48,793 bases of DNA from Syntrophomonadaceae bacterium. Its GTDB lineage: Bacteria > Bacillota > PH28-bin88. Made by a program: the position numbers and the translations under genes. Shown here one piece after another: positions 3,454 through 29,911 of this stretch. The DNA lies in NCBI GenBank assembly GCA_018333865.1, contig JAGXSE010000065.1:1-48793 (forward strand), given 5' to 3'. A model generated the notes under the pieces. It saw only the letters and a program-made list of their open reading frames with translations. It had not been told where the DNA came from and searched no databases. The first letter of the stretch is position 1. The number at the start of each line of letters is the position of its first letter.

Positions 3454-3480
3454 GGATGGCGGTGAAAGCCGTTTTTTTTT
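3454..3480 (+). terminator. Probable terminator after fliS
   Basis: A short stem (core GGC at 3458-3460 with GCC at 3468-3470, extended by weak A-U and G-U pairs) precedes nine consecutive T. The stem is weak but the T tract is long, and it closes the fliD-fliS block. Confidence 0.55.
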
Positions 3481-3503
3481 TGCCATTTATCATAGATAGC
3501 TAC

Positions 3504-3803: not shown

Positions 3804-3833
3804 ATGACATATATTGTAGTTTCATGGTATTAT
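3804..3833 (+). promoter_or_regulatory. Sigma-A type promoter for the flgB operon
   Basis: ATGACA (3804-3809), an 18-base spacer and TATTAT (3828-3833) form a reasonable housekeeping promoter. Transcription would begin near 3840, about 25 bases before the riboswitch aptamer, which fits a riboswitch-controlled leader. Confidence 0.6.
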
Positions 3834-3862: not shown

Positions 3863-3956
3863 TCCTGCGAGGGGCAAGCTTTTCGAAAGGAAATGTGCGC
3901 AAAGCCATGGGTCTAAGGTCTGACAATGTCTGACTATGACTGCCAGGCTGCCAGGA
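3863..3956 (+). ncRNA. c-di-GMP-I (GEMM) riboswitch aptamer
   Basis: The segment has the GEMM-I hallmarks in order: closing stem TCCTG (3863-3867) with CAGGA (3952-3956), GGGGCAAGC, a short hairpin with the CGAAAGG tetraloop region (3884-3890), GCGCAAAGCC (3897-3906), GGGTCTAAGG (3910-3919), and the tetraloop-receptor side GCCAGGCTGCC (3942-3952). This class senses cyclic di-GMP and commonly sits before motility operons in Clostridia. It directly precedes flgB, the first gene of the basal-body/motor operon. Whether it is an ON or OFF switch cannot be fixed by eye; a terminator follows it. Confidence 0.92.
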
Positions 3957-3972
3957 TTATTTTTGCTGGCAT

Positions 3973-4014
3973 GCCTATCTGCAGGCGAACTTGCCCTGGG
4001 GGATAGGCGTTTTT
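3973..4014 (+). terminator. Expression-platform terminator of the c-di-GMP riboswitch
   Basis: GCCTATC (3973-3979) pairs with GATAGGC (4002-4008), with a small inner CAGG/CCTG stem (3982-3985, 3995-3998), and a T-run follows at 4010-4014. It is placed 17 bases after the aptamer and about 40 bases before flgB, as expected for transcriptional control of readthrough. Confidence 0.8.
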
Positions 4015-4055
4015 ATATATCTGGCTCTCAGGACTTCTTATAAGGGGGTTTAGGT

Positions 4056-4451
4056 GTGTGGAATGTGATGAATAGCCCAATTATGATGGCTCTGGCCAAA
4101 ACCCTTGACGCAGCGAGCCTTCGTCAGCAAGTAATTGCGCATAATATGGCCAATGTCAATACCCCCGGTTTTAAACGTTCCGCAGTTGCTTTTGAACAGG
4201 CCCTAGAGCGGGCATTGGAAGCCGGCAGGCAAGATGGCTCCCGGCGCGGGACTGTGGAGAGGCTTAAGGAAATCCGACCTCAGGTAGTGCGTGACAATGC
4301 TACCTCCATGCGGGCAGACGGCAATAATGTGGACATAGAGACCGAAATGGCCTTGCTGGCCCTGAACACCCTGAACTATAATGCGGTAGTTCAGCGGTTA
4401 AGCTCAAAATTTGCTTCAGCGAGTTATGTAATTCATGAGGGGAGGAGATAG
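4056..4451 (+). CDS. flgB: Flagellar basal-body proximal rod protein FlgB
   Basis: FlgB is a proximal rod subunit exported across the membrane by the flagellar type III apparatus. The rod-family N-terminal motif is clear (HNMANVNTPGFKRSAVAFE), and the C-terminus (NNVDIETEMALLALNTLNYNAVVQRLS) fits FlgB. It is 131 residues. GTG at 4056 is taken as the start because a GGGGG SD lies about nine bases upstream; ATG at 4068 is less well placed. It is the first gene after the c-di-GMP riboswitch. Confidence 0.95.
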   Translation: MWNVMNSPIMMALAKTLDAASLRQQVIAHNMANVNTPGFKRSAVAFEQALERALEAGRQDGSRRGTVERLKEIRPQVVRDNATSMRADGNNVDIETEMALLALNTLNYNAVVQRLSSKFASASYVIHEGRR

Positions 4452-4454
4452 GCC

Positions 4455-4862
4455 ATGAAAATATTTCACTCCATGAATATCAGCCTGTCCGGTTTAACGG
4501 CGGAAAGGCTTCGTCTGGACCTGGTGGCCAGCAACCTGGCCAACTCCAATACTACCCGCACTCCGGAAGGCGGCCCTTTTAAGCGGCGAGTAGCGGTATT
4601 TGCCGAGCGGCTGGAGCAAATGAGGGGCGTTAAAGGTGGGGTGCAGGTGACTGCAATAACAAAAGACAATTCACCGCCCCGGATGGTCCATGACCCATCC
4701 CACCCCGATGCTAACCATGAAGGTTATGTGGCCTATCCAAACGTGGATGTCTTGCAGGAAATGGTAGATATGATCTCTGCTGCCAGAGCTTATGAAGCCA
4801 ATGTCACCGTATTTAATGCCGGCAAGACCATGGCCTTGAAGGCCATGGAAATCGGCCGCTGA
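4455..4862 (+). CDS. flgC: Flagellar basal-body rod protein FlgC
   Basis: FlgC is a proximal rod subunit partnering FlgB. It shows the FlgC-specific SNLANSNTTRTPEGGPFKRR motif and the C-terminal VDVLQEMVDMISAARAYEANVTVFNAGK helix with its conserved M-x-x-A-x-R-A-Y-E-A-N. It is 135 residues, starts at ATG 4455 behind AGGGGAGGAGA, and follows flgB by three bases, implying translational coupling. Confidence 0.96.
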   Translation: MKIFHSMNISLSGLTAERLRLDLVASNLANSNTTRTPEGGPFKRRVAVFAERLEQMRGVKGGVQVTAITKDNSPPRMVHDPSHPDANHEGYVAYPNVDVLQEMVDMISAARAYEANVTVFNAGKTMALKAMEIGR

Positions 4863-4889
4863 ACATAACTGCTCAAGGAGGGTTGGCCC

Positions 4890-5186
4890 GTGAAAATAAG
4901 CCTGATGGCGCCGCAAAATCTGCCCTTGCCTAAGATTGTCCCTGTCTCAGAGGATTTAGCTGCAAATGCATCTTTCGGGGAATTAATGCGGCAAAAACTG
5001 GTCGAAGTTAATAACCTTCAGCTAAGGTCTGATGAACTTACCAAGGAAATGCTGACCGGAAAACCAGTAGACTTGCATCAGGTGATGATTGCCGCCGAAC
5101 AGGCAGGCCTGGCCCTGCAGCTGACGGTGCAAGTCCGGAACAAAATTATCGAGGCCTATCAAGAAATATCCCGGATGCAAATCTAG
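4890..5186 (+). CDS. fliE: Flagellar hook-basal body protein FliE
   Basis: FliE is the small adaptor between the MS ring and the rod and the first substrate of the export apparatus. The 98-residue protein has the typical C-terminal half: a helix ending GKPVDLHQVMIAAEQAGLALQL, then VRNKIIEAYQEISRMQI, which matches the FliE end motif. GTG start behind AAGGAGGG. It lies in the usual flgB-flgC-fliE-fliF order. Confidence 0.95.
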   Translation: MKISLMAPQNLPLPKIVPVSEDLAANASFGELMRQKLVEVNNLQLRSDELTKEMLTGKPVDLHQVMIAAEQAGLALQLTVQVRNKIIEAYQEISRMQI

Positions 5187-5281
5187 CCTTCAGGCAGGAA
5201 GCATTCTCCGCCTAGATTTCAAACCGGTTGTTGATCAGTTTAAGGCATATTTTATGCCTGATTAGATCAGGGGTGAAGGTA

Positions 5282-6844
5282 TTGGCAAATCTTTGGGGTG
5301 GGGTGTCCCAGTGGTGGTCTGCCCTGCCAGGCAATCGAAAATCCATGTATGTAGTTATGGCTGCAGCAATCGTAGCGGCCGGGTTTTTCTTTGTTCAATG
5401 GATGGGAAAGGTTGCCTACACTCCTTTGTTTACCCGTCTGGAACCCCGGGAGGCAAACCAGATTGTGGAAAGGCTAAAAGAGCTGAATGTTAGATACCAG
5501 CTTGCTGACCAGGGCGCTACTGTCCTTGTTCCCCAGGAGATGGTTTATGAATTGAGGATGCAGATGGCCGGTTCCGGTATGCTGGTAGGCGGCGGAGTGG
5601 GGTTTGAAATCTTCGATCAGAGCAAACTGGGCATGACTGATTTTGAGCGCCGGATGGACCATCTCCGGGCCCTCCAGGAAGAGTTGCGCAGGACCATCGT
5701 CCAGCTGGAGGCGGTGGAGCAAGCCCGGGTACACCTGGTACTGCCGGAGCCCAGTGTTTTTATTCGTGATGAACGGCCTGCTTCCGCATCGGTAACTTTA
5801 AAGCTAGGCCCCCTGGCAAAGCTGACGCAGGAACAGGTAAAAGCTATTGTTTATCTGGTCGCCAGCGGTGTGGAAAACCTGCCGCCTGAGAATGTCAAGG
5901 TGATTGACACTGGGGGGAATATTTTAAGCGATGGCATTGAAGTTCTTGGCAGTGGCAGCATTACCCAGCAGCGGGCGGCGCAACAGGAACTGAAAAAAGA
6001 GTTTGAACGGGACCTGGAGCGGCGGGTGCAGGGCATGCTGGAAAGAATCCTGGGGCCTGGGCGGTCTGTGGCCATGGTGACGGCAGATTTGGATTTCAAC
6101 TCCCGGGAAGTAACCCGGATTGAATATGCCAATCCTGGGGTTTTAAGATCCGAACAAGTCCGGGAGGAGGAAAGTTCCTCTACGGGAGGAGCGCCGGTTC
6201 CCGCCGGTTTTGAACCCAATACCACTGCCGGCGGCGGGTACCCCTTGTTAGAAAATCAGACCAGTTCTACCCAAAGCCGGACGGAAACAGAGCGGGTTTT
6301 TGAAATAGGTCAAACCCAGGAACGGGTCCTCCACGCGCCGGGAAGAGTAAAAAGCCTTTCAACGGCAGTTGTGCTGGATGGAGAACTTACCCCTGAGAAA
6401 GTGGCTGAAATCAGGAATATTGTTGCTGCTGCCATTGGTTTTCAGGATAACCAGGAGCGACAAGACCGGATTGAGGTGAGCAGCCTGGCCTTCAATACTG
6501 CCTACCTGGCAGAGGCTGAAAATGAAATGGCTGCCCTGGCAGCCGCCAGGGCCAGGGAGGAGCAGATCCGCCAGTGGGTAACCTGGGGCATCCAGGGCTT
6601 AGGGATTATTCTTGCCTTTATCTTAGCGTTAATATTTTTACGACGGCTCAGCCAGTTATCCTCCGGCAGGATGGTAGCTGCTACCCTGGATGAACAGGTC
6701 AGGCCTATAGCTACCTATGCTCCGCCTACCTTGTCCCCGGAAGAGGCCCAAAAACGGGGTAAGCAGGAACAAGTGCGGAAGTTAGCCCGGGAAAAACCGG
6801 ACGAAGTTGCTCATCTGATGAAGACCTGGATAACTGAGGATTAG
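5282..6844 (+). CDS. fliF: Flagellar MS-ring protein FliF
   Basis: FliF forms the inner-membrane MS ring that houses the export gate and carries the FliG rotor. A first membrane segment lies near residues 20-40 (MYVVMAAAIVAAGFFFVQWM), followed by YscJ/FliF ring domains (YTPLFTRLEPREANQIVERLK; QARVHLVLPEPSVF), a second segment near the C-terminus (GLGIILAFILALIFL) and a charged FliG-binding tail. The frame is open further upstream, but TTG at 5282 has the best SD spacing (GGGG eight bases before) and gives a standard 520 residues; GTG at 5273 is the alternative. Confidence 0.93.
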   Translation: MANLWGGVSQWWSALPGNRKSMYVVMAAAIVAAGFFFVQWMGKVAYTPLFTRLEPREANQIVERLKELNVRYQLADQGATVLVPQEMVYELRMQMAGSGMLVGGGVGFEIFDQSKLGMTDFERRMDHLRALQEELRRTIVQLEAVEQARVHLVLPEPSVFIRDERPASASVTLKLGPLAKLTQEQVKAIVYLVASGVENLPPENVKVIDTGGNILSDGIEVLGSGSITQQRAAQQELKKEFERDLERRVQGMLERILGPGRSVAMVTADLDFNSREVTRIEYANPGVLRSEQVREEESSSTGGAPVPAGFEPNTTAGGGYPLLENQTSSTQSRTETERVFEIGQTQERVLHAPGRVKSLSTAVVLDGELTPEKVAEIRNIVAAAIGFQDNQERQDRIEVSSLAFNTAYLAEAENEMAALAAARAREEQIRQWVTWGIQGLGIILAFILALIFLRRLSQLSSGRMVAATLDEQVRPIATYAPPTLSPEEAQKRGKQEQVRKLAREKPDEVAHLMKTWITED

Positions 6845-6857
6845 GGAGTGGGCAAAG

Positions 6858-7865
6858 TTGCCTAAAAAAAATCTGACCGGGCTGGAGAAAGCTGCCATTT
6901 TTCTGATTAATTTGGGCCCTGAGCTTTCAGCTCAGGTTTTAAAACAATTGCCGGAAGCAGATATTGAAAGAATTACCTACCAGATTGCCAATACCGTTGC
7001 TGTTGATAACGAAATGAAGGCACAGGTGATCGAGGAGTTTGTTCAGCTAAACGAGGCCCAACAGTTTCTGCTCCATGGGGGAATAAAATATGCTAAAGAG
7101 TTGCTGGAGAAAACCCTGGGCGCCAGCAGGGCGGCCGAAATAATTAAAAAGCTGACGGAGAACTCAAAAATCCGGCCCTTTTCGCTGGTCCGCAAGACAG
7201 ATCCCAGACACCTGGTTAATTTTATTTCCCATGAACATCCCCAGGCTATTGCCCTGATTTTATCTTACCTGGAGCCAGAGCAGGGCTCGGTAGTCTTAAG
7301 CGCGCTGCCTGATGAGCAGCAGGCTGATATTGCCCGCAGGATTGCTTTGATGGAACGAACTGCGCCTGAAGTGGTGCGGCAGGTGGAAAGTGTTCTGGAA
7401 CAAAAGCTGTCTTCCTTGGTGGATCAGAACTTTACCTCAGTGGGCGGAGTTGGCACCCTGGTGGACATATTAAACCGGGTTGACCGGGGGACCGAAAAGA
7501 CAATTTTAGAAACCCTGGAAATGGAAGACCGGGAGTTGGCTGAAGAAATCAGAAAACGCATGTTTGTCTTTGAGGATATTATCAAACTGGATGACAATTC
7601 TATCCGGCGGGTCCTGCGGGAGGTTGATACCAAGGAACTGGCCCTGGCCTTAAAAGGCGCCAGCATCGAAGTGGCAGATAAAGTGTTTAAGAACATGTCC
7701 CAACGGGCTGGTGAGATGCTCCGGGAAGACATCGAGTTTTTGGGCCCAACCCGTTTGCGGGATGTGGAGGAAGCCCAGCAGCGCATTGTACAGGTAATTC
7801 GCCGTTTGGACGAATCTGGCGAAATTATTATCGGCCGGGGTGGGGAGGATGCCATTATTGTCTAG
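6858..7865 (+). CDS. fliG: Flagellar motor switch protein FliG
   Basis: FliG is the C-ring component that contacts MotA and generates torque. The N-terminal KAAIFLINLGPELSAQVLKQLPEADIERI, the middle EHPQAIALILSYLEPEQ (EHPQ motif) and the C-terminal charged torque helix region (FVFEDIIKLDDNSIRRVLREVDTKELALALKGA) are all present. It is 335 residues, the usual size. The TTG start is preceded by GGGAGTGGG. It sits 13 bases after fliF and overlaps fliH. Confidence 0.97.
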   Translation: MPKKNLTGLEKAAIFLINLGPELSAQVLKQLPEADIERITYQIANTVAVDNEMKAQVIEEFVQLNEAQQFLLHGGIKYAKELLEKTLGASRAAEIIKKLTENSKIRPFSLVRKTDPRHLVNFISHEHPQAIALILSYLEPEQGSVVLSALPDEQQADIARRIALMERTAPEVVRQVESVLEQKLSSLVDQNFTSVGGVGTLVDILNRVDRGTEKTILETLEMEDRELAEEIRKRMFVFEDIIKLDDNSIRRVLREVDTKELALALKGASIEVADKVFKNMSQRAGEMLREDIEFLGPTRLRDVEEAQQRIVQVIRRLDESGEIIIGRGGEDAIIV

Positions 7866-8571
7866 GTTAATTAAGATGGCTCCCGTTGATGCAAAAAGCC
7901 CCGTCAGGCTTGAAAATAGAAATAAACTTACTTCTTCGGACAGCCTGCAAGGAGATTTATCTTTACATACACTTGTGAAGGCATCTGAGGCTCAGGCTTC
8001 CCTCATTTTGGAAGAAGCCCGCAGACAAGCAGCACAGATTAAGGAGGAAGCAACGCGAGAGGCGGAATCTTTGCGGCAGGAAGCCACCTATAGCGGTTAC
8101 CAGGAGGGCCGTCAGGCAGGTTATCAAGAGGGTATGACGGAGGCTGCCGGGGTCAAGGAGGAGGCTAACAGGATCCTGGCAGAGGCCCTCCGCCGCCGCC
8201 AAGAGATATTCGACAGCCTGCACGAAGATTTTATTGCTGTAGCTGTTGCAATGGCGGAAAAGATTATCCGGCAGGAGGTTAGCCTTGAACCGGGAGTGAT
8301 TATTAATATTTGCCGCGCAGTGGTAAAAAAGGCTCTTGATAGCACAACTTATTCCCTGTCCGTCCATCCAGAGTTATCGTCGGTGGTTGAGGCTCATCGC
8401 CACTTAATTGAACAGCATTTACCTAAAGACGCTGCCATGCAGGTTTCGCCGGATGCCGAGATAGAGCCAGGCGACTGTTACCTGGAGACAGATACTTCCG
8501 TGGTGCATGGAGGGGTAAAGGACCAGTTAGCCATGCTCCGCAAGGCCCTCTATGCCGAGGAGAGAACATGA
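7858..8571 (+). CDS. fliH: Flagellar assembly protein FliH
   Basis: FliH is the stator-like regulator of the export ATPase FliI. The central part is a long glycine/alanine/glutamate-rich helix (EGRQAGYQEGMTEAAGVKEEANRIL) with the G-x-x-x-G repeats typical of FliH; the C-terminal domain (AVAVAMAEKIIRQEVSLEPGVI) is the FliH/HrpE fold. TTG at 7858 is preferred because GGGAGG lies nine bases upstream, giving an 8-base overlap with fliG; GTG 7840, ATG 7849 and ATG 7876 are alternatives. About 237 residues. Confidence 0.9.
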   Translation: MSRLIKMAPVDAKSPVRLENRNKLTSSDSLQGDLSLHTLVKASEAQASLILEEARRQAAQIKEEATREAESLRQEATYSGYQEGRQAGYQEGMTEAAGVKEEANRILAEALRRRQEIFDSLHEDFIAVAVAMAEKIIRQEVSLEPGVIINICRAVVKKALDSTTYSLSVHPELSSVVEAHRHLIEQHLPKDAAMQVSPDAEIEPGDCYLETDTSVVHGGVKDQLAMLRKALYAEERT

Positions 8572-9899
8572 AAAACGGAAACTTGGCCGGACCCCCAGTC
8601 CAATTCATCCGCCGTTTAAAAGAGATTGATCCGTTGCGGTGCAGCGGAAAAATTGCCCAGGTAATCGGCCTTACTGTAGAGGCTGTAGGTTTAAAGGCTG
8701 CGGTGGGGGAGCTTTGCGAGATTCAAACACTGGCCGGGGGCCGCAGAATATCTGCCGAGGTAGTAGGGTTTAAAAACAAAAGGACTTTGTTAATGCCATT
8801 AGGAAGCCTGGAAGGAATCGGCCCGGGATGCCAGGTTCTTTCTTTAGGAAGGAATCATGAAATCATGGCGGGGCCGTACTTGTTGGGCCAGGTTTTAGAC
8901 GGTTTAGGCCGGCCAATCGGCGGCCACCAGTTCACCCCTGATCCGGCGGATTCGCCTTATTCTGTGAATAACCTCCCTCCCAGTCCCCTGGCGAGAAGCA
9001 GAATCAAAGATGTATTGGCTACCGGAATTAAAGCTATCGATGCCTTATTAACCTGCGGGAAAGGTCAAAGGATTGGTATTTTTTCCGGGAGCGGCATCGG
9101 GAAAAGCACCCTCTTGGGGATGATTGCCCGTCACAGTGCTGCTGATGTAAATGTAATCGGCCTGATTGGCGAACGGGGAAGGGAAGTCCTGGAATTCCTG
9201 GAGCGGGATCTGGGGGATGGTTTGCAGAAGTCGGTGGTTGTGGTGGCAACCTCAGACCAGCCGCCTTTGATCAGGATCAAGGGTGCCTTTGTTGCAACGG
9301 CAATTGCCGAGTATTTCCGGGACCAGGGTAAATCTGTAGTTCTCATGATGGATTCCATTACCCGTTTTGCCAATGCTCAGCGAGAGGTTGGCTTGGCGGT
9401 TGGAGAACCGCCGACTACCCGTGGCTACCCCCCTTCGGTTTTTGCGCTTTTGCCCAGGCTTTTGGAAAGAGGGGGGAAGACGAAGAATGGAGCCATCACC
9501 GGTTTGTATTCAGTTCTGGTAGAAGCTGACGACATGAATGAACCTGTGGCGGACGCAGTGAGAGGGATCCTGGATGGGCATATCGTCCTGTCCCGGGATT
9601 TGGCCCAGCGCAACCATTACCCGGCTATTGACGTTTTGGCCAGTATCAGCCGGTTAATGCCCGAACTGGTTGATGCCAAACACAGGGAGCTTGCCGGCAA
9701 GTTAAGGGATTACCTGGCTGCTTACAAGGAGGCGGAGGATTTAATCAATATCGGGGCCTACGAGGAAGGATCGAATCCCCGGGTGGACACTGCCCGCCGT
9801 TTTTATCCCTCTATTGTATCTTTTTTGCAGCAGAATATAAACGAACACTTTTCTTTCCAACAGGCCCTGGTTGGGTTAAAGACAACAATTGGGCACTAG
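8568..9899 (+). CDS. fliI: Flagellum-specific ATPase FliI
   Basis: FliI is the ATPase of the flagellar type III export machine and is related to the F1 beta subunit. A Walker A (FSGSGIGKSTLLG), the Walker B region (SVVLMMDSITRFANAQREVG) and the FliI/YscN signature around PPTTRGYPPSVFALLPRLLERGG are visible. At 443 residues it is complete. ATG 8568 overlaps the fliH stop by four bases (ATGA), indicating translational coupling. Confidence 0.97.
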   Translation: MKNGNLAGPPVQFIRRLKEIDPLRCSGKIAQVIGLTVEAVGLKAAVGELCEIQTLAGGRRISAEVVGFKNKRTLLMPLGSLEGIGPGCQVLSLGRNHEIMAGPYLLGQVLDGLGRPIGGHQFTPDPADSPYSVNNLPPSPLARSRIKDVLATGIKAIDALLTCGKGQRIGIFSGSGIGKSTLLGMIARHSAADVNVIGLIGERGREVLEFLERDLGDGLQKSVVVVATSDQPPLIRIKGAFVATAIAEYFRDQGKSVVLMMDSITRFANAQREVGLAVGEPPTTRGYPPSVFALLPRLLERGGKTKNGAITGLYSVLVEADDMNEPVADAVRGILDGHIVLSRDLAQRNHYPAIDVLASISRLMPELVDAKHRELAGKLRDYLAAYKEAEDLINIGAYEEGSNPRVDTARRFYPSIVSFLQQNINEHFSFQQALVGLKTTIGH

Positions 9900-9921
9900 C
9901 GAGGCCAAAAGGATGGTTTAA

Positions 9922-10371
9922 ATGCGGGATTTTAAATTTAAAATGGAAAAAGTTCTACAGTTCCGTCTTGCGGCGGAAGAGAAGGCGAAGCATGACCTGG
10001 CTGGCTCCCTGGCCAACTTGAAAACTGATGAAGCTCGCTTGCATTTATTCCGGCAGGAACTGGACAGCCGGCAGCAGATTATTGAGGCTGGGACGCAGGT
10101 TGACTTGAACCAGGCCCTGCTGGAGGCGGATTACAGGCACTATCTGGAAGGTATGGTTACCCGCCAGACAGCGGAGGTAGCAAGATCCAGCCAGGAGGTA
10201 CAAGCCACCAGAGACTCTTTGCTTACTGCAGTGCAGGATCGCCGGGTGATGGGCAGCTTAAAAGAAAAACAGCGAGGATACCACGACTACCTGGTAAGGC
10301 GCCTGGAGCAACGGGATTTGGATGAAATCGGCGGAAATCTGTTTTTGCGTCACACCAGGGAGGCAGAATAA
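9922..10371 (+). CDS. fliJ: Flagellar export protein FliJ
   Basis: FliJ is a coiled-coil protein that sits in the FliI hexamer and activates export with FlhA. The sequence is nearly all helix and starts with the family-typical FKFKMEKVLQFRLAAEEKAKHDLA, followed by heptad-rich segments. It is 149 residues, the normal FliJ size, and directly follows fliI. ATG start behind an AAAAGGATGG SD. Confidence 0.88.
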   Translation: MRDFKFKMEKVLQFRLAAEEKAKHDLAGSLANLKTDEARLHLFRQELDSRQQIIEAGTQVDLNQALLEADYRHYLEGMVTRQTAEVARSSQEVQATRDSLLTAVQDRRVMGSLKEKQRGYHDYLVRRLEQRDLDEIGGNLFLRHTREAE

Positions 10372-10401
10372 GGACTATTTTCTTGCTGGTCAGGGGTATA
10401 A

Positions 10402-10452
10402 CCGCTCTCAGGCCGCTGCCTCGCCGCCAGGCGAAAAAGAGGGTTTGAGCGG
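10402..10452 (+). other. Hairpin pair between fliJ and fliK
   Basis: CCGCTC (10402-10407) can pair with GAGCGG (10447-10452), enclosing a perfect 5-bp hairpin TCGCC/GGCGA (10421-10425, 10430-10434). No T-run of terminator type follows. It may affect mRNA processing or polarity within the operon; no function is assigned. Confidence 0.35.
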
Positions 10453-10493
10453 CTAACCGTCTGCGATATAAAAAACTAAAGGAGGTGATAAAT

Positions 10494-11576
10494 ATGCAAG
10501 TACAGATGAGGGAGCCGACTATGCCGGCAGCCAAGCACGAGGAATATGGGCCAAAAATGAAAGCAAAGGAGGATGCCGCATCCTGCAGGGATTTCTTTGC
10601 TTCGGTTTTGGCTTGCGCCCAAAACATGGAAGAACAGCATCCGTGCTCCAAGGACCTTTCAAGCCTGCCTGGCCCAGACCAGGAAAATCATTTTCTGACA
10701 GTTTTGCTGAGCCCTGCTCTGCAAGATTTGCAGCTTGTTCCGGGAGAGAAAGTAAGGCTATCTTCCAATCCCACAGGCATGATTTGGTATGATCAACAAT
10801 CACCGGGTTTTGCTGGGAGAATAGCAGGAGAACCTGCTCTTGGCCAGGTCCAAGGTGCTGCAGGAGAAATCGACACGAAAAAGAATGAATTGTTCTTGCG
10901 AGAACCGGGGGCAGGAAGAATGGCCAAAGAGACCATCCTGCTGATGCAAAGGCAGGAGGTCAATCATGCCGCAGTTATTGCTCCTGCTTTTACAGGGCCT
11001 GAAGCAAAACTGGTTGATCTGTCCCAACTGGCCCGAGTAAAATTGTTTGAGCCGGGACCTGTCGCTGGGAGTAAAGATTCCCCGGAGGCCGGGCAGGCAA
11101 ATTTCCTTTTGCTTAGCCAGGGAGAAACACTTAGCCCGTCGTTAGTCCGTCCGACGGTGAGCACCCAGTTTCCGTATCTCCACGTTTTATCGCACCAGCT
11201 GGTGGATCGGGCCAAGCTGGCAGTATCGGAGGGCCGCAGCGAGCTGGAGATACAGCTTAAACCCGAGCAACTGGGACGCCTCAAGCTAAGCCTGACCCTG
11301 GAAGACGGGGTGCTAACAGCCAGGTTTGTGGTGGAAAACCCCAGGGTAGGCCAACTGATTGAAACCAACCTTACCCATTTGCGGACTGTGCTGTCAGAAG
11401 CAGGGCTGAGATTCGAAGAGGCCAGCGTAAATGTCGGCGGAGAGGCTTTTAGCGGGTTTGATCAAGGTGAAGAGGCTTCTTATGCAAAGGATGCCGGCTC
11501 CTTGATCCAGCAAGATGCAGAGGATTTCATAGTGCCCGGTCAGGTTGCGGGCGCCGGGATTAACCTATTGGCATAG
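10494..11576 (+). CDS. fliK: Flagellar hook-length control protein FliK
   Basis: FliK is a secreted ruler that sets hook length and switches export specificity through FlhB. The N-terminal two thirds are low-complexity and poorly conserved, as expected; the C-terminal domain carries the FliK signature (GRSELEIQLKPEQLGRLKLSLTLEDGVLTARFVVENPRVGQLI), with the L-x-P-E-x-L-G-x-L core. ATG 10494 is chosen because AAGGAGG lies eight bases before it; GTG 10485 lies within that SD. 360 residues, followed by flgD. Confidence 0.9.
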   Translation: MQVQMREPTMPAAKHEEYGPKMKAKEDAASCRDFFASVLACAQNMEEQHPCSKDLSSLPGPDQENHFLTVLLSPALQDLQLVPGEKVRLSSNPTGMIWYDQQSPGFAGRIAGEPALGQVQGAAGEIDTKKNELFLREPGAGRMAKETILLMQRQEVNHAAVIAPAFTGPEAKLVDLSQLARVKLFEPGPVAGSKDSPEAGQANFLLLSQGETLSPSLVRPTVSTQFPYLHVLSHQLVDRAKLAVSEGRSELEIQLKPEQLGRLKLSLTLEDGVLTARFVVENPRVGQLIETNLTHLRTVLSEAGLRFEEASVNVGGEAFSGFDQGEEASYAKDAGSLIQQDAEDFIVPGQVAGAGINLLA

Positions 11577-11587
11577 GAGGTGGGCCG

Positions 11588-12082
11588 ATGAATATCAGCA
11601 GTGTTGCCTATCAACAGAACAATCTGTCCAGTGCCCAAAAGAGCATGAAAACCTTGGGTAAAGATGATTTCTTGAGCCTGCTGGCCGCTCAGCTGCAAAA
11701 CCAGGATCCGTTAAAGCCAATGGAAGACAAGGAGTTCATTGCCCAGCTGGCCCAGTTCAGCGCTTTGGAGCAAACCCAGAACATGGCTACCCAGATGGAA
11801 AACCTCTCCCAGGCGATGCATTATTTTATGGAAAACCAGGCTCAACGGAACAAGGAGGCTCAATTTGCCAAAGCCTTGTCGATGCTAGGCCGGCATATTG
11901 AAGGCGAAGCCCAGGGGGTTGGACTGGTTAGGGGTATTGTATCAGGCATTAAGATTAAGGATGAGCAAATCCTGCTTGCGGTTGAAAAATACCAGGTAGC
12001 CTTGACTGATGTAAAAGAAGTAGCCGTTTCCTTTAACACTGAAAACGGGCAGGGAGGAAACAAAGATGACTCACAGGATTGA
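11588..12082 (+). CDS. flgD: Flagellar hook assembly scaffold FlgD
   Basis: FlgD caps the growing hook. The N-terminal FlgD signature is clear (LGKDDFLSLLAAQLQNQDPLKPMEDKEFIAQLAQFSALEQTQNM). At 164 residues it lacks the longer C-terminal Tudor/FnIII domains of enteric FlgD, which is common in Firmicutes. ATG start behind AGGAGGTGGGCCG. Its end overlaps the next gene by 17 bases. Confidence 0.94.
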   Translation: MNISSVAYQQNNLSSAQKSMKTLGKDDFLSLLAAQLQNQDPLKPMEDKEFIAQLAQFSALEQTQNMATQMENLSQAMHYFMENQAQRNKEAQFAKALSMLGRHIEGEAQGVGLVRGIVSGIKIKDEQILLAVEKYQVALTDVKEVAVSFNTENGQGGNKDDSQD

Positions 12083-12455
12083 CCTGACAAGACAGGTGCT
12101 TCCGCAAACCTCTCATCAAACCCTGGCCGCCAGGCCGGATAAAACCAAAGAGCCGACTGGATCCTTTAAGGCAGCGCTGGAAAGGGAAATCAAGGATAAT
12201 GTCCGGATCAAGTTTTCCCACCACGCCCAGGAACGTCTGTCCAAGCGGCAGGCAACCCTATCCCCTCATGATTTGGATAGATTAAGCCAGGCGGTGGAGC
12301 AGGCTGCCAAAAAAGGTGCGCGGGAATCCCTCATTCTCCTGGACGATCTGGCATTAATTGTCAGCATTGCTAACCGGACGGTCGTTACGGCCGTTAATGG
12401 CACAAGCATTAAGGACGGTGTTTTTACTAATATTGACAGTGCGGTAATTTTATAA
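12066..12455 (+). CDS. Flagellar operon protein (TIGR02530-type)
   Basis: This 129-residue soluble protein matches my memory of the small conserved Firmicutes flagellar operon family TIGR02530, found between flgD and flgE. Its core is FSHHAQERLSKRQATLSPHDLDRLSQAVEQAAKKGARESLILLDDLALIVSIANRTVVTAVNG, ending in KDGVFTNIDSAVIL. No enzyme motif or membrane segment is seen. The family role is unknown, presumably in hook assembly. ATG 12066 lies inside the end of flgD behind AGGGAGGAAACAAAG. Confidence 0.8.
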   Translation: MTHRIDLTRQVLPQTSHQTLAARPDKTKEPTGSFKAALEREIKDNVRIKFSHHAQERLSKRQATLSPHDLDRLSQAVEQAAKKGARESLILLDDLALIVSIANRTVVTAVNGTSIKDGVFTNIDSAVIL

Positions 12456-12524
12456 TTAGCAAGGCCTGGGCTGGACCTCTTTGAGGAAGCCCGCAACCGC
12501 TGACTGACAGACGCGGTTAACCAC

Positions 12525-12541
12525 AATTGGGGACATTCCGC
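12525..12541 (-). repeat. Dispersed GGGGACATTCC motif copy
   Basis: AATTGGGGACATTCCGC here is identical, in reverse orientation, to 44107-44123, and shares 15 bases with 3574-3588. It lies in the 123-base gap before the flgE-like gene, which also holds an AACCGC/GCGGTT inverted repeat just upstream. All three copies are intergenic. Confidence 0.6.
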
Positions 12542-12578
12542 AGCAAAAACAACCACTTAAAGGAGGTCGACAACTACT

Positions 12579-13379
12579 ATGATGCGTTCTATGTTTGCCG
12601 CCGTATCTGGCCTTCGGATCCACCAGATGCGGATGGATGTAATCGCCGATAACATTGCTAATGTTAATACCACTGGTTTTAAGCGAGCCAGGATGACCTT
12701 TCAGGATATTTTTTACCAAACCTTAAGAGGGGGATCGGCTCCGGCTGATCCCCGTGGTGGGACCAATCCCCATCAAATTGGCCTAGGGGCTGGTGTAGCC
12801 AGTATCGATGTGATCCAAACCCAGGGGGCGGCAGGGGCTACCGGCAATCCTACTGACCTGATGATTCAGGGAGATGGTTTTTTTGTATTGACTGATGGTG
12901 AAAACTCCTTCTATACCAGGGCCGGAAATTTTGCCTTTGATGCCAATGGCAACCTGGTTGTTCCTGGTAGCGGACTCTTCTTGGTAGGGGCTGATGGTTC
13001 CAGCCCCATCAGTGTACCCACAGAGGCCAGCAGTTTTAGCATTGACACCTTCGGCAACGTATCCTTCATTGATCCGAATGGTCTTAATCAAGCCGGAACA
13101 ATCGGCCTGGTTAAGTTTGCTAACCCGGGGGGGCTGAAGAAGGTTGGAGAAAACCTGTATGTAATGGACCCCAACGCCCATGACGGCGAGCCTGAAATCG
13201 GCAACCCCGGCGCTGATGGCAGGGGTACCTTGATTGCATCGGCCCTGGAAATGTCTAATGTGGAATTAGCCCAGGAGTTCAGCGAAATGATTATCACCCA
13301 GCGGGGTTTCCAGGCTAATGCCAGGGTTATTACCACCTCTGATGAAATGCTACAGGAGCTCGCCAACCTGAAGCGTTAA
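12579..13379 (+). CDS. flgE: Flagellar hook-basal body protein (FlgE/FlgG family)
   Basis: The N-terminus (MFAAVSGLRIHQMRMDVIADNIANVNTTGFKRARMTFQDIFYQTL) and C-terminus (ALEMSNVELAQEFSEMIITQRGFQANARVITTSDEMLQELANLKR) are the conserved rod/hook family ends, with the YTRAGNF motif in the middle. Its position after fliK-flgD and before flbD is that of the hook gene flgE. The length of 266 residues is that of a distal rod protein FlgG, so the hook role rests on context. ATG 12579 or 12582, behind AAAGGAGGTCG. Confidence 0.85.
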   Translation: MMRSMFAAVSGLRIHQMRMDVIADNIANVNTTGFKRARMTFQDIFYQTLRGGSAPADPRGGTNPHQIGLGAGVASIDVIQTQGAAGATGNPTDLMIQGDGFFVLTDGENSFYTRAGNFAFDANGNLVVPGSGLFLVGADGSSPISVPTEASSFSIDTFGNVSFIDPNGLNQAGTIGLVKFANPGGLKKVGENLYVMDPNAHDGEPEIGNPGADGRGTLIASALEMSNVELAQEFSEMIITQRGFQANARVITTSDEMLQELANLKR

Positions 13380-13407
13380 AGACGCCAGGAAAACCAACCA
13401 AAACTAT

Positions 13408-13438
13408 GCCCGGTACTCAGTAGATCTGAGTGCCGGGC
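13408..13438 (+). other. 13-bp hairpin before flbD
   Basis: GCCCGGTACTCAG (13408-13420) pairs with CTGAGTGCCGGGC (13426-13438) through a 5-base loop, with only one G-U pair. It is very stable but has no T-run, so it is a poor Rho-independent terminator. It lies 18 bases before the flbD start and may stabilise or process the mRNA between hook and motor genes. Confidence 0.55.
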
Positions 13439-13456
13439 GGATGGGCGGGATAAGCC

Positions 13457-13669
13457 ATGATCCAACTGACTGGTATGGATAATAAGGTGTTTATCATAAA
13501 CGCGGAAATGATTGAACGGCTTGAAAGCATGCCGGAAACCCTGATTACTCTGATAAACGGCAAAAGGGTTCTGGTGCAGGAGGGCATAGACGTTGTACGG
13601 TGTCGAATCATCGACTACCGGCGAGCTGTGAACGGAGTCAGGCGCAGGTATTGTGCCCCAGCGAGGTGA
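13457..13669 (+). CDS. flbD: Flagellar protein FlbD (SwrD family)
   Basis: This is a 70-residue protein with the FlbD pattern: MIQLTGMDNKVFIINAEMIERLESMPETLITLINGKRVLVQE. In Bacillus the homologue SwrD supports motor torque. It lies between the hook gene and motA, the conserved family position. The C-terminus is basic and carries one Cys. ATG start behind GGGCGGGATAAGCC. motA follows after five bases. Confidence 0.9.
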   Translation: MIQLTGMDNKVFIINAEMIERLESMPETLITLINGKRVLVQEGIDVVRCRIIDYRRAVNGVRRRYCAPAR

Positions 13670-13674
13670 CTAAA

Positions 13675-14475
13675 ATGAACCGCTTAGATCTGCTGACCGG
13701 TGTTGGCCTGGTTTTGGGGAGTAGCCTGATTATCTGGGCAATTGTTATCGGCGGCACCCTGCAAATGTATTGGAATTTCCCCGCTATTTTGATTACCGTC
13801 GGAGGCTCTTTTGCTGCTCTGATGGTCAGTTATGACTTGAAACAGGTCAAAGGCGTCTTTAATACAGTCCGGCATGTTCTTACTTCCGATACTCCAGATC
13901 CCCAGCAGGTGATCCAGACGATGACGGAACTGGCCAAGAAAGCCCGGCGGGAAGGTCTCTTGGCATTAGAAGACGACGTCAACCGCTATCCTGATCCTTT
14001 TTTTCAGAGGGGAGTCCGGATGATGGTGGATGCTCTCGACCCGGAGTTGATCCGGGAAGTCCTGGAGACAGAAATCGAGTACACCCAGCGCCGGCACGAG
14101 CTGGGGCAAGGAATCTTCCGCACCTGGGCAGCGTTGTCTCCAGCCTTTGGCATGATTGGGACTTTAATCGGTTTGATCGCCATGCTGGCCAAACTTGACG
14201 ACCCATCCGCCCTGGGTCCTGGGATGGCGGTAGCCTTGATCACCACTTTTTATGGTACTATCATGGCCAATCTGGTTTTTACCCCGATTGCCAACAAGCT
14301 AAACCTCCGCAGCAAGGAAGAGCTGCTGTTGAAAGAAATGATCCTGGAGGCCATCATCTCCATTCAGTCCGGCATGAACCCCCGCATCCTGGAGGAAAAA
14401 CTTACAGCTTTCTTATCGCCGAAGGCTAATAAAGAAAATGCCGGCTCCAGAGAGGAGAGGTCATCCATTGCGTAG
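13675..14475 (+). CDS. motA: Flagellar motor stator protein MotA
   Basis: MotA forms the ion-conducting stator with MotB and pushes on FliG. Four membrane segments are visible (two near residues 5-50, two near 150-205), with the ion-channel motif AALSPAFGMIGTLIGLIAML and the TTFYGTIMANLVFTPIANKL segment. The cytoplasmic loop between them carries the charged FliG-contact region. ATG 13675 with a GCGAGGTGA SD is preferred although the frame is open upstream into flbD; 266 residues. Confidence 0.96.
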   Translation: MNRLDLLTGVGLVLGSSLIIWAIVIGGTLQMYWNFPAILITVGGSFAALMVSYDLKQVKGVFNTVRHVLTSDTPDPQQVIQTMTELAKKARREGLLALEDDVNRYPDPFFQRGVRMMVDALDPELIREVLETEIEYTQRRHELGQGIFRTWAALSPAFGMIGTLIGLIAMLAKLDDPSALGPGMAVALITTFYGTIMANLVFTPIANKLNLRSKEELLLKEMILEAIISIQSGMNPRILEEKLTAFLSPKANKENAGSREERSSIA

Positions 14476-15235
14476 GCGGCGCCAACAAGAAAGAGGAGGT
14501 GGGGTAGACGAGTGGATCGTCACCTATTCTGATTTAGTCACCCTTTTGTTAACTTTTTTTATCCTCCTGTATTCCTTTTCTGTTATTGATATAGTCAAAT
14601 TCAGGGCCTTTATCACCTCTTTTCAGGGTAGCGGGGTCCTAGACTGGAGCAGCTCTCCGCTGCAAGAAAGAAGTCCGCAGGACACCCAGCAACCTACCGA
14701 GGTGACAGCTACCCCCAGCGAACAGGAGATCCCTGAACTGGAACAAGTCAACCAGGTCAACCCTTTGGTGGAGGTCTACCTTGCTGTCCAGGACTTTTTG
14801 CAGGAGAGCGGTTTGGATAACCTGGTGGAGGTCAGGTACGAGGATCGGGGCATTGCGCTGGATATTAAAGATAGGGTTTTGTTTGATTCCGGCAAGGCTG
14901 ATTTAAGGCCGGAAGCCAGGCAATTGCTTAACAAACTGTCGGAACTCTTGAAGAGACTTCCCTATCAAATATCGGTGGAAGGCCATACCGATAACCGGCC
15001 GATAAACACCCAGGAGTTTCCAAGTAACTGGGAATTATCGGCAGCAAGAGCTGTCAGAGTGGTGCGGTACCTGGTTGAGCACCAGGGTTTAGATCCGCGG
15101 CATTTTGCTGCCGTTGGTTATGGGGAACACAAGCCGGTGGTGCCTAATGACAGCCTGGAGAATATGGCCTTAAACCGGCGGGTGGTAATCATGATTATTG
15201 CCCGGAATCCTTTTGCTGACGAACTTAATTTATAG
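14468..15235 (+). CDS. motB: Flagellar motor stator protein MotB (OmpA-like)
   Basis: MotB anchors the stator to peptidoglycan. A basic N-terminal tail precedes WIVTYSDLVTLLLTFFILLYSF, whose Asp in YSDL is the ion-binding residue. The C-terminal OmpA domain is complete (VLFDSGKADLRPEARQLL; ISVEGHTDNRPI; NWELSAARAVRVVRYLVE; NRRVVIMI). TTG 14468, eight bases inside motA, is chosen because GAGGAGAGG lies just upstream; the frame remains open to ATG 14438. 255 residues. Confidence 0.95.
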   Translation: MRRRRQQERGGGVDEWIVTYSDLVTLLLTFFILLYSFSVIDIVKFRAFITSFQGSGVLDWSSSPLQERSPQDTQQPTEVTATPSEQEIPELEQVNQVNPLVEVYLAVQDFLQESGLDNLVEVRYEDRGIALDIKDRVLFDSGKADLRPEARQLLNKLSELLKRLPYQISVEGHTDNRPINTQEFPSNWELSAARAVRVVRYLVEHQGLDPRHFAAVGYGEHKPVVPNDSLENMALNRRVVIMIIARNPFADELNL

Positions 15236-15255
15236 AAAATTCGGAGGTGTGGTAT

Positions 15256-15714
15256 TTGTCCCCAGGTTCTTCATCCGGGAAGCGCAAAAAAATTTTGGCT
15301 CTGGCCCTCGTGTTTATTCTGCTCCTGGCAGGGGGCGGCGGGGCATATTACTGGTTCTTCCTCCGCCAGGCCGGCGAGGAAGGAAAGACACCCGCAGCAG
15401 AGGAACGGTTAAGAGTTATTACTTTGAACAGCTTCACTGTAAATCTGGCCGATGCCGGCTCCCGCCGGTTTCTGCGCACTACGATCTCTTTGGAGTATTC
15501 CGGCAGTGGGAATGACGTGGAGAGAGCGCTGTTGGAAAAGGAGCACCGGGTTAGGGACGCGATTATCGGGGTCCTGCGCAGTAAAACTGTGGCTGAGATA
15601 AATAATCAGGAGAAAACTGTCCAGCTTCGTCAGGAGTTGGTTGAAGCGGTTAACCGGGTATTAGAGAATAATCAGATCAGAGACGTTTATTTCCGGGACT
15701 TTATCATTCAATAA
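15256..15714 (+). CDS. fliL: Flagellar basal body-associated protein FliL
   Basis: FliL is a single-pass membrane protein ringed around the stator and modulates torque. A basic N-terminus (SSGKRKKIL) precedes one membrane segment (ALALVFILLLAGGGGAYYWFFL); the periplasm-side domain has the FliL pattern (FTVNLADAGSRRFLRTTISLEYS and DAIIGVLRSKTVAEIN). TTG 15256 lies eight bases after GGAGG and is preferred over GTG 15247. 152 residues. Confidence 0.92.
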   Translation: MSPGSSSGKRKKILALALVFILLLAGGGGAYYWFFLRQAGEEGKTPAAEERLRVITLNSFTVNLADAGSRRFLRTTISLEYSGSGNDVERALLEKEHRVRDAIIGVLRSKTVAEINNQEKTVQLRQELVEAVNRVLENNQIRDVYFRDFIIQ

Positions 15715-15718
15715 GGGG

Positions 15719-16084
15719 ATGAAGCCTGTGCTGACCGAGGCGGAAATTCACCGGATAATCAATAAACTCCACCTGAGCAGCGGTCCAAGGATTGCCCCGG
15801 TTCAATTTTTGCCATTGGAGCCGGGACCTTTACGCGGGAATAAGGTTCCCCTGAGCCATGTAGCTGACATCGGAGTTACTGTTGCTGTCCAATTAGGCAG
15901 AACCAGCCTTACCATCAAGGAAATCCTGGCTTTGGAGGCTGGTGCTACAATTACGCTTGAATCCCTTGTCGGTGAACCGGCCGACATCCTGGTCAACGAG
16001 CAGCTCTTGGGCAAGGGTGAAGTGTTAGTAATTAATGACAGCTTCGGGGTCCGGGTTACTGCTTTAGCTGAAGTAAAGGAATAA
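15719..16084 (+). CDS. fliN: FliN-like motor switch protein (SPOA domain)
   Basis: The C-terminal 70 residues are a full SPOA domain (ADIGVTVAVQLGRTSLTIKEILALEAGATITLE, GEPADILVNEQLLGKGEVLVINDSFGVRVTAL), close to the SPOA end of FliY at 29912-30949. The N-terminal 50 residues are short and unlike FliM or FliY. It occupies the slot where fliM-fliN usually stand, between fliL and fliO, and gives the locus a second FliN-type C-ring component. ATG 15719 or GTG 15728 may be the start. Confidence 0.88.
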   Translation: MKPVLTEAEIHRIINKLHLSSGPRIAPVQFLPLEPGPLRGNKVPLSHVADIGVTVAVQLGRTSLTIKEILALEAGATITLESLVGEPADILVNEQLLGKGEVLVINDSFGVRVTALAEVKE

Positions 16085-16100
16085 GGAACGGTGAGACAAG

Positions 16101-16415
16101 ATGGGTGATCTGTTTGAAGCTGTCCTGCGGCTCTTGATTTTTCTTCCTCTGGTAGCCGCCCTGGCTTATTTCAGTTTAAAATACGGATTAGGGAAGAAAT
16201 GGCAGTTTCAGGGGACCGGTTCGATCAAGGTGCTGGACCGGGTGTCCCTTAACGCCAAAAGCCAGCTGTACCTTGTGGAAGCGGGAGGAAAGTATTTTGT
16301 CCTCGCCTCTGGTGAACAAGGCGCTCAGTTAATAACCGAACTTTCCGGTTGGCGCCCTCCTGATCCGGTGCCCACAACCGCTGGTACCGGCTGGAGACTA
16401 TGGGGTGGAAGATAG
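16101..16415 (+). CDS. fliO: Flagellar biosynthesis protein FliO
   Basis: FliO is a small membrane protein that helps assemble the FliP ring of the export gate. One membrane segment lies near the N-terminus (LLIFLPLVAALAYFSLKYGLG), followed by the FliO domain (GSIKVLDRVSLNAKSQLYLVEAGGKYFVLASG). It is 104 residues and lies directly before fliP, the canonical order. Confidence 0.9.
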   Translation: MGDLFEAVLRLLIFLPLVAALAYFSLKYGLGKKWQFQGTGSIKVLDRVSLNAKSQLYLVEAGGKYFVLASGEQGAQLITELSGWRPPDPVPTTAGTGWRLWGGR

Positions 16416-16435
16416 TGGAAGCCTGGGGGAAGAAA

Positions 16436-17188
16436 ATGACAAAGCTAAGGCATGGATTAATGCTTCTACTGGTGATAAACCTTTTCTTAACCAATTTACC
16501 TGCCTATGCAGAGCCGGTTTTCCCGGGTATAAGCCTGGAAATCGGCGGGGCTGAAGAACCCCAGGAAGTTGTAGGTTCCTTGCAGCTCCTGTTCTTATTA
16601 ACTGTTTTGACCCTGGTGCCTGCTATCTTGGTCTTGCTTACCTCCTTTACCAGGATAATTGTTGTGCTGTCCTTTGTCCGCAGCGCTATGGCAACGCCAA
16701 ATACGCCTCCTAATCAAGTCTTGATCGGATTGGCCCTCTTCTTAACCTTTTTTACTATGGCCCCGGTCTACCAGGAAGTCAAGGTTAAAGCCCTGGAGCC
16801 CTATCTGGCCCAGCAAGTGTCTTTTCAGGAAGCCTTGGCCTTAGCCGAAAAGCCGGTAAAGGAATTCATGTTCCGGCAGACAAGAGAAAAGGACCTGGCA
16901 TTGTTCGTTAATTTATCACAAGGGCCCCGGCCCCAGTCCAAGGAGGATGTGCCTATTACGGCATTGATTCCGGCATTTGTAATCAGCGAGCTGAAGACGG
17001 CTTTTCAAATGGGTTTTTTGATCTATGTGCCGTTTTTAGTAATTGATATGGTTGTCGCCAGCACCTTAATGTCAATGGGCATGTTTATGGTTCCGCCAGT
17101 GGTGATCTCCCTTCCATTTAAACTGCTGTTATTTGTCCTGGTTGACGGCTGGTACCTGGTGGTCAAATCCCTGCTAGAAAGCTTTTAG
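16436..17188 (+). CDS. fliP: Flagellar export gate protein FliP
   Basis: FliP pentamers form the core of the export gate in the membrane. A signal-peptide-like N-terminus (HGLMLLLVINLFLTNLPAYAEP) is followed by the diagnostic TSFTRIIVVLSFVRSAMATPNTPPNQVLIGLALFLTFF and the later ITALIPAFVISELKTAFQMGFLIYVPFLVIDMVVAS. ATG 16436 gives a proper signal sequence and lies behind GGGGGA; ATG 16400 would overlap fliO. 250 residues. Confidence 0.95.
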   Translation: MTKLRHGLMLLLVINLFLTNLPAYAEPVFPGISLEIGGAEEPQEVVGSLQLLFLLTVLTLVPAILVLLTSFTRIIVVLSFVRSAMATPNTPPNQVLIGLALFLTFFTMAPVYQEVKVKALEPYLAQQVSFQEALALAEKPVKEFMFRQTREKDLALFVNLSQGPRPQSKEDVPITALIPAFVISELKTAFQMGFLIYVPFLVIDMVVASTLMSMGMFMVPPVVISLPFKLLLFVLVDGWYLVVKSLLESF

Positions 17189-17198
17189 GAGGTCAAGC

Positions 17199-17468
17199 AT
17201 GTCTCAGGAGTATGTCATCCACTTAGCCAGAGAATCTTTAAGCTTAACCCTGCTCTTAGCTGCGCCCCCACTGGGTTTTGGCCTGGCAGTCGGGCTTTTA
17301 ATCAGCATTCTGCAGGCGACTACCCAGATCCAGGAGCAGACCCTGACCTTTGTCCCTAAAATTGTGGCCACGCTTGCTTCTTTAATCTTATTTGGCTCCT
17401 GGATGCTATCTGCTTTGGTTAATTTTACAACAGAATTATATGCCGGCTTAAGCGGAATCGTGCGCTAG
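17199..17468 (+). CDS. fliQ: Flagellar export gate protein FliQ
   Basis: FliQ is a two-helix membrane protein of the export gate. The 89-residue sequence has the family pattern: APPLGFGLAVGLLISILQATTQIQEQTLTFVPKIVA, with the conserved Q-A-x-T-Q-I-x-E-x-T-L. ATG start behind AGGAGG. It lies 10 bases after fliP and 2 before fliR. Confidence 0.96.
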   Translation: MSQEYVIHLARESLSLTLLLAAPPLGFGLAVGLLISILQATTQIQEQTLTFVPKIVATLASLILFGSWMLSALVNFTTELYAGLSGIVR

Positions 17469-17470
17469 CA

Positions 17471-18250
17471 GTGGAAGCCATGCTGGAGATGCAAAACTGG
17501 CAGCCGATGTTTTTAGTCCTGGTCAGAATAGCCTCGTTTATGCTGGTGGCGCCATTTTTTGCCATTCGCCAGGCCCCAGCATTAGCCAAGATAGGCCTGG
17601 CAGCCCTGATGACTTTCTTAATAACCCCTGTCTTGCCTTCGGTACCATTAGGAGTGTTGCATGATACTCTTTGGGAAGCAGTGCTGGTTATATTGGGTGA
17701 GGTTCTGGTAGGATTGGCAATGGGGTTTGTTGTCACCCTGACTTTTACTGCATTCAGGGTGGCGGGGGAACTGGCCGACCTCAATATGGGCTTTGCCATG
17801 GCTACCCTGATCGACCCCCAGACTGGCGCCACGACTAGTTTAATGGGGGAGTTTCTCTTCCTGTTAGGTATTTTGCTGCTATTAGCGACTGATGCCCACC
17901 ACCACCTGCTCGCTGGACTGGTCAAAAGCTTTCAGGTTGTTCCTCTGGGCAGCGCAGTTTTCAGCGGCGTTACAGCCGGTAACGTTGTGGAGATTTTTTC
18001 AGCCATGTTTGCGATGGCTTTAAGGATTGTGGCGCCCGTAATCGCGGTCTTGTTGATCACTGACCTGGCCCTGGGCATGGTCGCCCGGACTGTTCCCCAG
18101 CTCAATGTATTCATCCTGGGTTTTCCGTTAAAGATTGCCCTGGGCATCTTAACCTTCAGCCTGGCTGCGCCGCTTTTAGCCGTGGCGGCAAGTAATCTTT
18201 TCAGCCAAATGGAAAAGGATTTAGCCTTGCTTTTGGGGAGCTTAATATAA
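17471..18250 (+). CDS. fliR: Flagellar export gate protein FliR
   Basis: FliR completes the FliPQR gate. The 259-residue protein is hydrophobic throughout with about six membrane segments; typical motifs include FLVLVRIASFMLVAPFFAIRQAPALAKIGLA and GFVVTLTFTAFRVAGELADLNMGFAMATLIDP. GTG 17471 is used; ATG 17480 is an alternative. Its stop shares one base with the flhB start (TAATG). Confidence 0.95.
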   Translation: MEAMLEMQNWQPMFLVLVRIASFMLVAPFFAIRQAPALAKIGLAALMTFLITPVLPSVPLGVLHDTLWEAVLVILGEVLVGLAMGFVVTLTFTAFRVAGELADLNMGFAMATLIDPQTGATTSLMGEFLFLLGILLLLATDAHHHLLAGLVKSFQVVPLGSAVFSGVTAGNVVEIFSAMFAMALRIVAPVIAVLLITDLALGMVARTVPQLNVFILGFPLKIALGILTFSLAAPLLAVAASNLFSQMEKDLALLLGSLI

Positions 18251-19332: not shown

Positions 19333-19361
19333 TCTATCAGATAGAGAAGGGAGGGTGAGAG

Positions 19362-22501: not shown

Positions 22502-22503
22502 TT

Positions 22504-23376: not shown

Positions 23377-23387
23377 GAGGGAATAAC

Positions 23388-24065: not shown

Positions 24066-24081
24066 AGGAGCGGGTTTAGCC

Positions 24082-24771: not shown

Positions 24772-24787
24772 CCTGAGGAGGGCTGTC

Positions 24788-25716: not shown

Positions 25717-25730
25717 AAAGGAGTAAGGCT

Positions 25731-26489: not shown

Positions 26490-26525
26490 CAAGCTAGGTA
26501 GCGAAAGCATTGGAGGAAAAGGTTA

Positions 26526-27029: not shown

Positions 27030-27046
27030 GGCAAAGGGTGAAAGGC

Positions 27047-27844: not shown

Positions 27845-27920
27845 AGAACTCTCTGGATTCCGGCAGTTGCCTGCTGCCAATTCAGGATGTGCAAAAAACT
27901 TGGTTAAAAGGGGTTAAAAC

Positions 27921-28538: not shown

Positions 28539-28553
28539 TAGGAGGTACATAAA

Positions 28554-28916: not shown

Positions 28917-28931
28917 GATAGGTATAAATAA

Positions 28932-29900: not shown

Positions 29901-29911
29901 GGGGGCGGGCG

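Follow-up and report, generated by a model that had tools for sequence, protein, structure and literature searches.

A probable OFF-type c-di-GMP-I riboswitch in the flgB operon leader of a Syntrophomonadaceae bacterium

In the Syntrophomonadaceae bacterium studied here, flgB opens a long run of flagellar and chemotaxis genes, which raises the question of whether an RNA element in its leader senses c-di-GMP, in which direction such an element would act, and how many genes it would reach. A first-pass annotation of the window (the whole stretch of DNA analysed, 48,793 nucleotides) had proposed a GEMM-I aptamer with all core motifs, followed by a Rho-independent terminator and then flgB, and had named a comparison with the covariance model RF01051 as a check. 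Comparison of the whole window with all Rfam families (cmscan) returned exactly one match, to RF01051 (c-di-GMP-I) at 3863-3955 of the forward strand, full length (1-87) and with E=1.2e-9; its 61.2 bits lie 26 above the gathering score of 35, so that the check was passed and the aptamer is borne out. The terminator holds as well: a folding-based scan found a hairpin at 3971-4010 (-20.1 kcal/mol) that runs directly into UUUUAUAU, and flgB is the next open reading frame (ORF). This hairpin was absent from the list of a simple consensus terminator scan, probably on account of internal loops in its stem. The layout of the leader is as follows.

3454..3482 (+): terminator-like hairpin with a T run, 3' of fliS, closing the upstream unit of fliD-flgN-flaG-fliS
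3804..3833 (+): candidate sigma-A promoter, ATGACA-18-TATTAT, its second hexamer preceded by TG; consensus match only
3863..3955 (+): c-di-GMP-I (GEMM-I) aptamer, RF01051, with a flgB-type P2 sub-variant inside at 3873-3905
3863..3867 (+): 5' strand of P1, UCCUG, pairing with CAGGA at 3952-3956; sequence and folding
3971..4014 (+): intrinsic terminator, stem 3971-3979 with 4002-4010, then UUUU; -20.1 kcal/mol
4042..4048 (+): ribosome binding site AAGGGGG for flgB, 7 nt before GTG; sequence
4056..4451 (+): flgB, first gene of the cluster, GTG start at 4056; Pfam Flg_bb_rod

Both its score above the gathering cut-off and its ligand-contacting residues point to the flgB-leader RNA as a c-di-GMP-I aptamer by family, with c-di-GMP as the presumed ligand: G3873, A3901 and C3951 fall in columns invariant across 32 aptamers, and we take them to be the equivalents of the ligand-contacting G20, A47 and C92 (Vc2 numbering). 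Since the hairpin at 3454 ends the upstream unit, flgB likely has its own promoter, and this hairpin together with the candidate promoter at 3804-3833 makes a transcription start near 3840 plausible; sigma-A consensus sites numbered three, against 1.4 expected by chance. Directly 3' of the aptamer, a UUAUUUUU tract at 3955-3964 is a candidate pause site that would prolong the ligand-binding window; a poly-U pause has been proposed for Cd1, the riboswitch before flgB in Clostridioides difficile (PMC9262584).

An antiterminator, and with it the direction of regulation, was absent from the first-pass annotation and is added by this analysis. Its two strands are placed by folding.

3945..3954 (+): 5' strand of the antiterminator, AGGCUGCCAG, the aptamer 3' strand, including C3951 (presumably the equivalent of Vc2 C92)
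3966..3976 (+): 3' strand of the antiterminator, CUGGCAUGCCU, with U3972 bulged; shares bases with the terminator 5' arm

These strands form 10 base pairs with one bulge (CUGGCA-u-GCCU) at -16.2 kcal/mol, or -21.4 kcal/mol with the outer CUGC:GCAG included. In silico, their pairing removes P1 and C3951 and takes GCCU of the terminator 5' arm AUGCCUAUC, so that, as in Cd1, the antiterminator takes the 3' strand from the aptamer and the 5' arm from the terminator. Minimum free energy (MFE) folds of growing transcripts contain it at 3978 and at 4002-4006, with the terminator 3' arm still incomplete. When P1 is forced, the terminator reaches a probability of 0.85 at 4006 and of 1.0 at 4014, which means that a bound aptamer does not stand in the way of the terminator; the two have no bases in common, and ligand binding can therefore only favour termination. 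The antiterminator thus excludes, and is excluded by, the aptamer on one side and the terminator on the other, which is the logic of an OFF switch. We consider it highly probable that the 5' leader of the flgB operon carries a transcriptional OFF-type c-di-GMP-I riboswitch, the exclusive pairings being those of in-silico folds, and ligand, direction, kinetics and operon reach being predictions. At low c-di-GMP, the nascent aptamer 3' strand AGGCUGCCAG would pair with CUGGCAUGCCU, breaking P1 and the binding pocket and occupying the terminator 5' arm, and RNA polymerase would read through into flgB and the later genes. At high c-di-GMP, the ligand would lock the aptamer and block the antiterminator, the AUGCCUAUC/GAUAGGCGU terminator would halt transcription at about 4014, and flagella synthesis would cease as the cell turns sessile.

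Folding energetics weigh against a simple version of this switch. In the full ligand-free leader at equilibrium the terminator (-63.4 kcal/mol) is favoured over the antiterminator (-60.6 kcal/mol), and thermodynamic switching sought at 37, 55 and 65 C was not seen in equilibrium folding alone, the full leader favouring the terminator at every temperature. The switch must therefore be kinetic, and readthrough at low ligand would depend on kinetics; the Cd1 antiterminator is likewise reported to be only transiently stable (PMC9262584). A terminated ground state of the free leader could also suit an ON switch, in which ligand prevents termination, and class I riboswitches of both signs do exist, Bc2 of B. 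thuringiensis being ON (PMC6366702). We regard this reading as very improbable here: with no bases shared between aptamer and terminator, forcing P1 still left the terminator fully formed, the same forced folds yielded no antiterminator compatible with the bound aptamer, and repression of flagella in the sessile state is the expected sense.

The window's aptamer departs from ordinary GEMM-I RNAs in the lower part of P2, which reads GGCAAGC-UUUU-CGAAAG-GAAA-U-GUGCGCAAAGC in place of GGCAAAC...GACGCAAAGC; the hallmarks of this sub-variant are GGCAAG, a bulged U and TGYRCGCAAAG, with an extra G-C/U pair in P2. Among the 32 aptamers of the model it occurs in the window's alone. Of 399 genomes of the phylum, 14 from three families contain the pattern RGCAAGCNNNNCGAAAGNNNNTGYRCGCAAAGC, each a single time, and all 14 matches sit 153-330 nt before a flgB match; as the pattern was derived from flgB-linked examples, this exclusivity means only that no match fell elsewhere among the 399 genomes. 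Five distinct sub-variant sequences have standard pairs in 35/35 cells, two of the pairs having changed in both partners, a sample too small for a strong claim of covariation. Mutations in lower P2 can alter cyclic-dinucleotide affinity and the selectivity between c-di-GMP and cGAMP (PMC9262584), so the sub-variant may matter, though the window keeps G20. That it forms a distinct, vertically inherited GEMM-I subclass which serves flagellar operons alone, in three families or more, and has an affinity or selectivity unlike that of the ordinary copies in the same genomes, is a doubtful proposition; the flgB-specific form itself is a detail that may be new.

Differing from ordinary GEMM-I in lower P2, just where point mutations shift affinity and selectivity, the sub-variant might sense another cyclic dinucleotide (for example 3'3'-cGAMP) or have relaxed selectivity, and one relative does carry A at the G20-equivalent position. 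We judge this improbable for the window, which keeps G at 3873 and C at 3951 (presumed equivalents of G20 and C92), and c-di-GMP is the expected signal given the 13 GGDEF and 2 EAL matches in the genome. The relative in question (L165 1501, genome G060), the only one with this A, has AGCAAGC in its flgB riboswitch, and a second GEMM-I aptamer of the same genome (L019) keeps the G. An A in place of G20 is the change associated with cGAMP-responsive GEMM-Ib and the mark of its cGAMP-selective members; assignment of the window's aptamer to that class was rejected on its G at 3873. Position 20 is a selectivity factor and not a hard filter (PMC9262584).

The same genome holds four GEMM-I aptamers, and the flgB copy has the lowest score, 61.2 bits against 76-81 bits for the other three. 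These lie between pilT-like and pilC-like genes, before a DUF342/FapA-like gene and before a small sigma-factor-like ORF (gene names from reading translations). The pilT-like/pilC-like copy (L001 1501-1585, contig C49) is a better match to RF03167, c-di-GMP-I-GGC (74.8 bits), so c-di-GMP may control type IV pilus genes at the RNA level as well. Native P2 is predicted at a probability of about 0.2 in the window's copy, against 0.76-0.998 in three sub-variant relatives (37-65 C), because a competing hairpin joins UCCU of the P1 5' strand to AGGA of P2. This hairpin (3863-3892, UCCUgCGAGGGG-caag-CUUUUCG-aa-AGGA, -10.2 kcal/mol) is possibly an extra element of the apo state or a sign of a weak aptamer. 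The ligand-bound fold lies 12 kcal/mol above the free MFE in a folding model that omits tertiary contacts. Low score, weak P2 and a terminator that dominates at equilibrium would all fit a degenerate sensor that binds poorly and leaves the terminator as a nearly constant attenuator; against this, all core motifs are kept, the score lies 26 bits above the cut-off, 13 other genomes have kept this sub-variant before flgB, and the tetraloop-receptor contact, which stabilises the aptamer, is left out of the folding model. We hold such a degenerate sensor to be unlikely and retain the OFF switch.

How widespread the arrangement is was judged from relatives. FlgB is present in 51 of the 61 genomes of the relatives set, and the upstream regions of 50 flgB-bearing genomes were searched with a covariance model built from the 32 aptamers: GEMM-I lies just upstream of flgB in 22 of the 50 (the window's own counted, and one of them weak at 27 bits), and likewise just upstream of flgB at 9 of 80 FliG loci of the named-genome collection, including that of Desulfotomaculum copahuensis. 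By scan, a terminator follows soon after the aptamer in 23 of 28 leaders (two of the 23 are identical and one is doubtful). Across 21 non-redundant leaders, aptamer tails pair with their own terminators at a mean of -17.9 kcal/mol, against -15.2 kcal/mol when terminators are swapped, a difference reached in 0 of 20,000 permutations but possibly inflated by base composition shared within a genome; the window's tail preferred its own terminator over all 20 others. A dinucleotide-shuffle control, which keeps composition, gave a combined Stouffer z of -5.3 over the 21 leaders, the window alone being not significant (z -0.93). In a relative of the same family (L116) the terminator arms CCUAUC/GAUAGG are conserved and the antiterminator is built otherwise (GAGAUA:UAUCUC), so that other bases serve the same logic.

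Two further arrangements were seen in these leaders. One genome (G026) has two tandem GEMM-I aptamers before flgB (L131, 1989-2072 and 2145-2228), and in one family (f14, L166-L174) many flgB leaders have GGACTNNAGTCC-like palindromes in the stretch from the terminator to flgB; the exact palindrome AGGACTWWAGTCC of relatives' leaders was sought in the window's genome and is absent there. An identity of this genome with Calderihabitans maritimus KKC1 was considered and is not supported, as it has 4 CooS matches over the cut-off against 6 cooS genes reported for KKC1. In the literature, nothing more on flgB-linked GEMM-I was found beyond C. difficile, the search covering non-subscription sources and hence giving weak evidence of absence.

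The likeness to C. difficile that had been claimed at the outset is confirmed by comparison with Cd1 (Cdi-1-3), a documented OFF switch before flgB with the same strand order (PMC6366702, PMC9262584). The two share aptamer class, position before the flgB operon, an intrinsic terminator between aptamer and flgB (3971-4014 in the window), the P-A-T-H order of strands (A and T forming the antiterminator, T and H the terminator) and a flagellar sigma factor within the operon. They differ in sequence and in P2, the window's being the sub-variant with a bulged U, and the window has a clear 5-bp P1 helix, whereas Cd1 is reported to have no canonical P1 beside the pocket (PMC9262584, PMC6366702); Cd1 is moreover a known switch, whereas the OFF function of the window's leader is read from sequence and in-silico folds. 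The flgB-linked GEMM-I RNAs of relatives (L116/L178, L165-L176) resemble the window's aptamer in distance to flgB (153-330 nt), in P2 sub-variant and, where examined, in having a terminator, but differ in the bases of the antiterminator and in that the window's P2 is weaker. The 3'3'-cGAMP riboswitch of pilM in Geobacter metallireducens has a homologous aptamer and also acts on transcription (PMC9262584), but is an ON switch with another strand order and cGAMP as ligand, unlike the window with its G at position 20. The flgB leader is thus a real and ordinary example of the known c-di-GMP-I/flgB OFF-switch arrangement, with ligand binding, direction and reach predicted; this analysis adds an antiterminator, a predicted direction, the spread of the arrangement in the phylum, a corrected gene count and an aptamer sub-variant that is possibly flgB-specific.

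The gene count concerns the cluster behind the leader, earlier put at more than 40 genes running to 30949; 4056-30949 holds 36 ORFs.

4056..30949 (+): flagellar/chemotaxis cluster from flgB to fliY, the presumed regulated unit; 36 ORFs, Pfam
23388-24065 (+): PilZ/YcgR protein in the cluster; Pfam
24040-24771 (+): sigma-70-family factor in the cluster; Pfam

Pfam identifies flgB, flgC, fliE, fliF, fliG, fliH, fliI, fliJ, fliK, flgD and FlgE/F/G proteins, together with flbD, motA, motB, fliL, a fliN-like gene, fliO, fliP, fliQ, fliR, flhB and flhA, as well as flhF-like and flhG-like genes, a YcgR-type PilZ gene, the sigma-70-family factor, cheD, cheR, cheC, cheY, fliM and a fliY-like gene. All 36 ORFs lie on the same strand with gaps of at most 123 nt; searches of 4056-30949 found no intrinsic terminator in the gaps and no sigma-28 promoter consensus, and four sigma-A-like matches lie inside genes. 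From the shared strand, the short gaps and the lack of gap terminators it is plausible that one RNA gates the whole cluster, though internal promoters are possible. Between a FlgE/F/G gene and flbD, a near-perfect GC-rich hairpin without a U tract (at 13380-13456, GCCCGGTACTCAG...CTGAGTGCCGGGC) is a possible processing or pause site.

Were the whole cluster a single transcript, the riboswitch would govern the late-gene sigma factor, the PilZ motility protein and the chemotaxis genes together. PilZ is a c-di-GMP-binding family and its YcgR-type members a family of c-di-GMP motor brakes; as the YcgR-type gene lies inside a cluster behind a c-di-GMP riboswitch, c-di-GMP may repress the synthesis of the very protein that senses it. 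How details of an aptamer may tune cyclic-dinucleotide sensing toward one target is a question for which the P2 sub-variant before flgB provides a concrete test case. The locus extends the flgB/c-di-GMP logic of C. difficile to a distant relative, and the survey suggests that the use of c-di-GMP at the RNA level to shut off the first flagellar operon is widespread in the phylum and not special to one pathogen.
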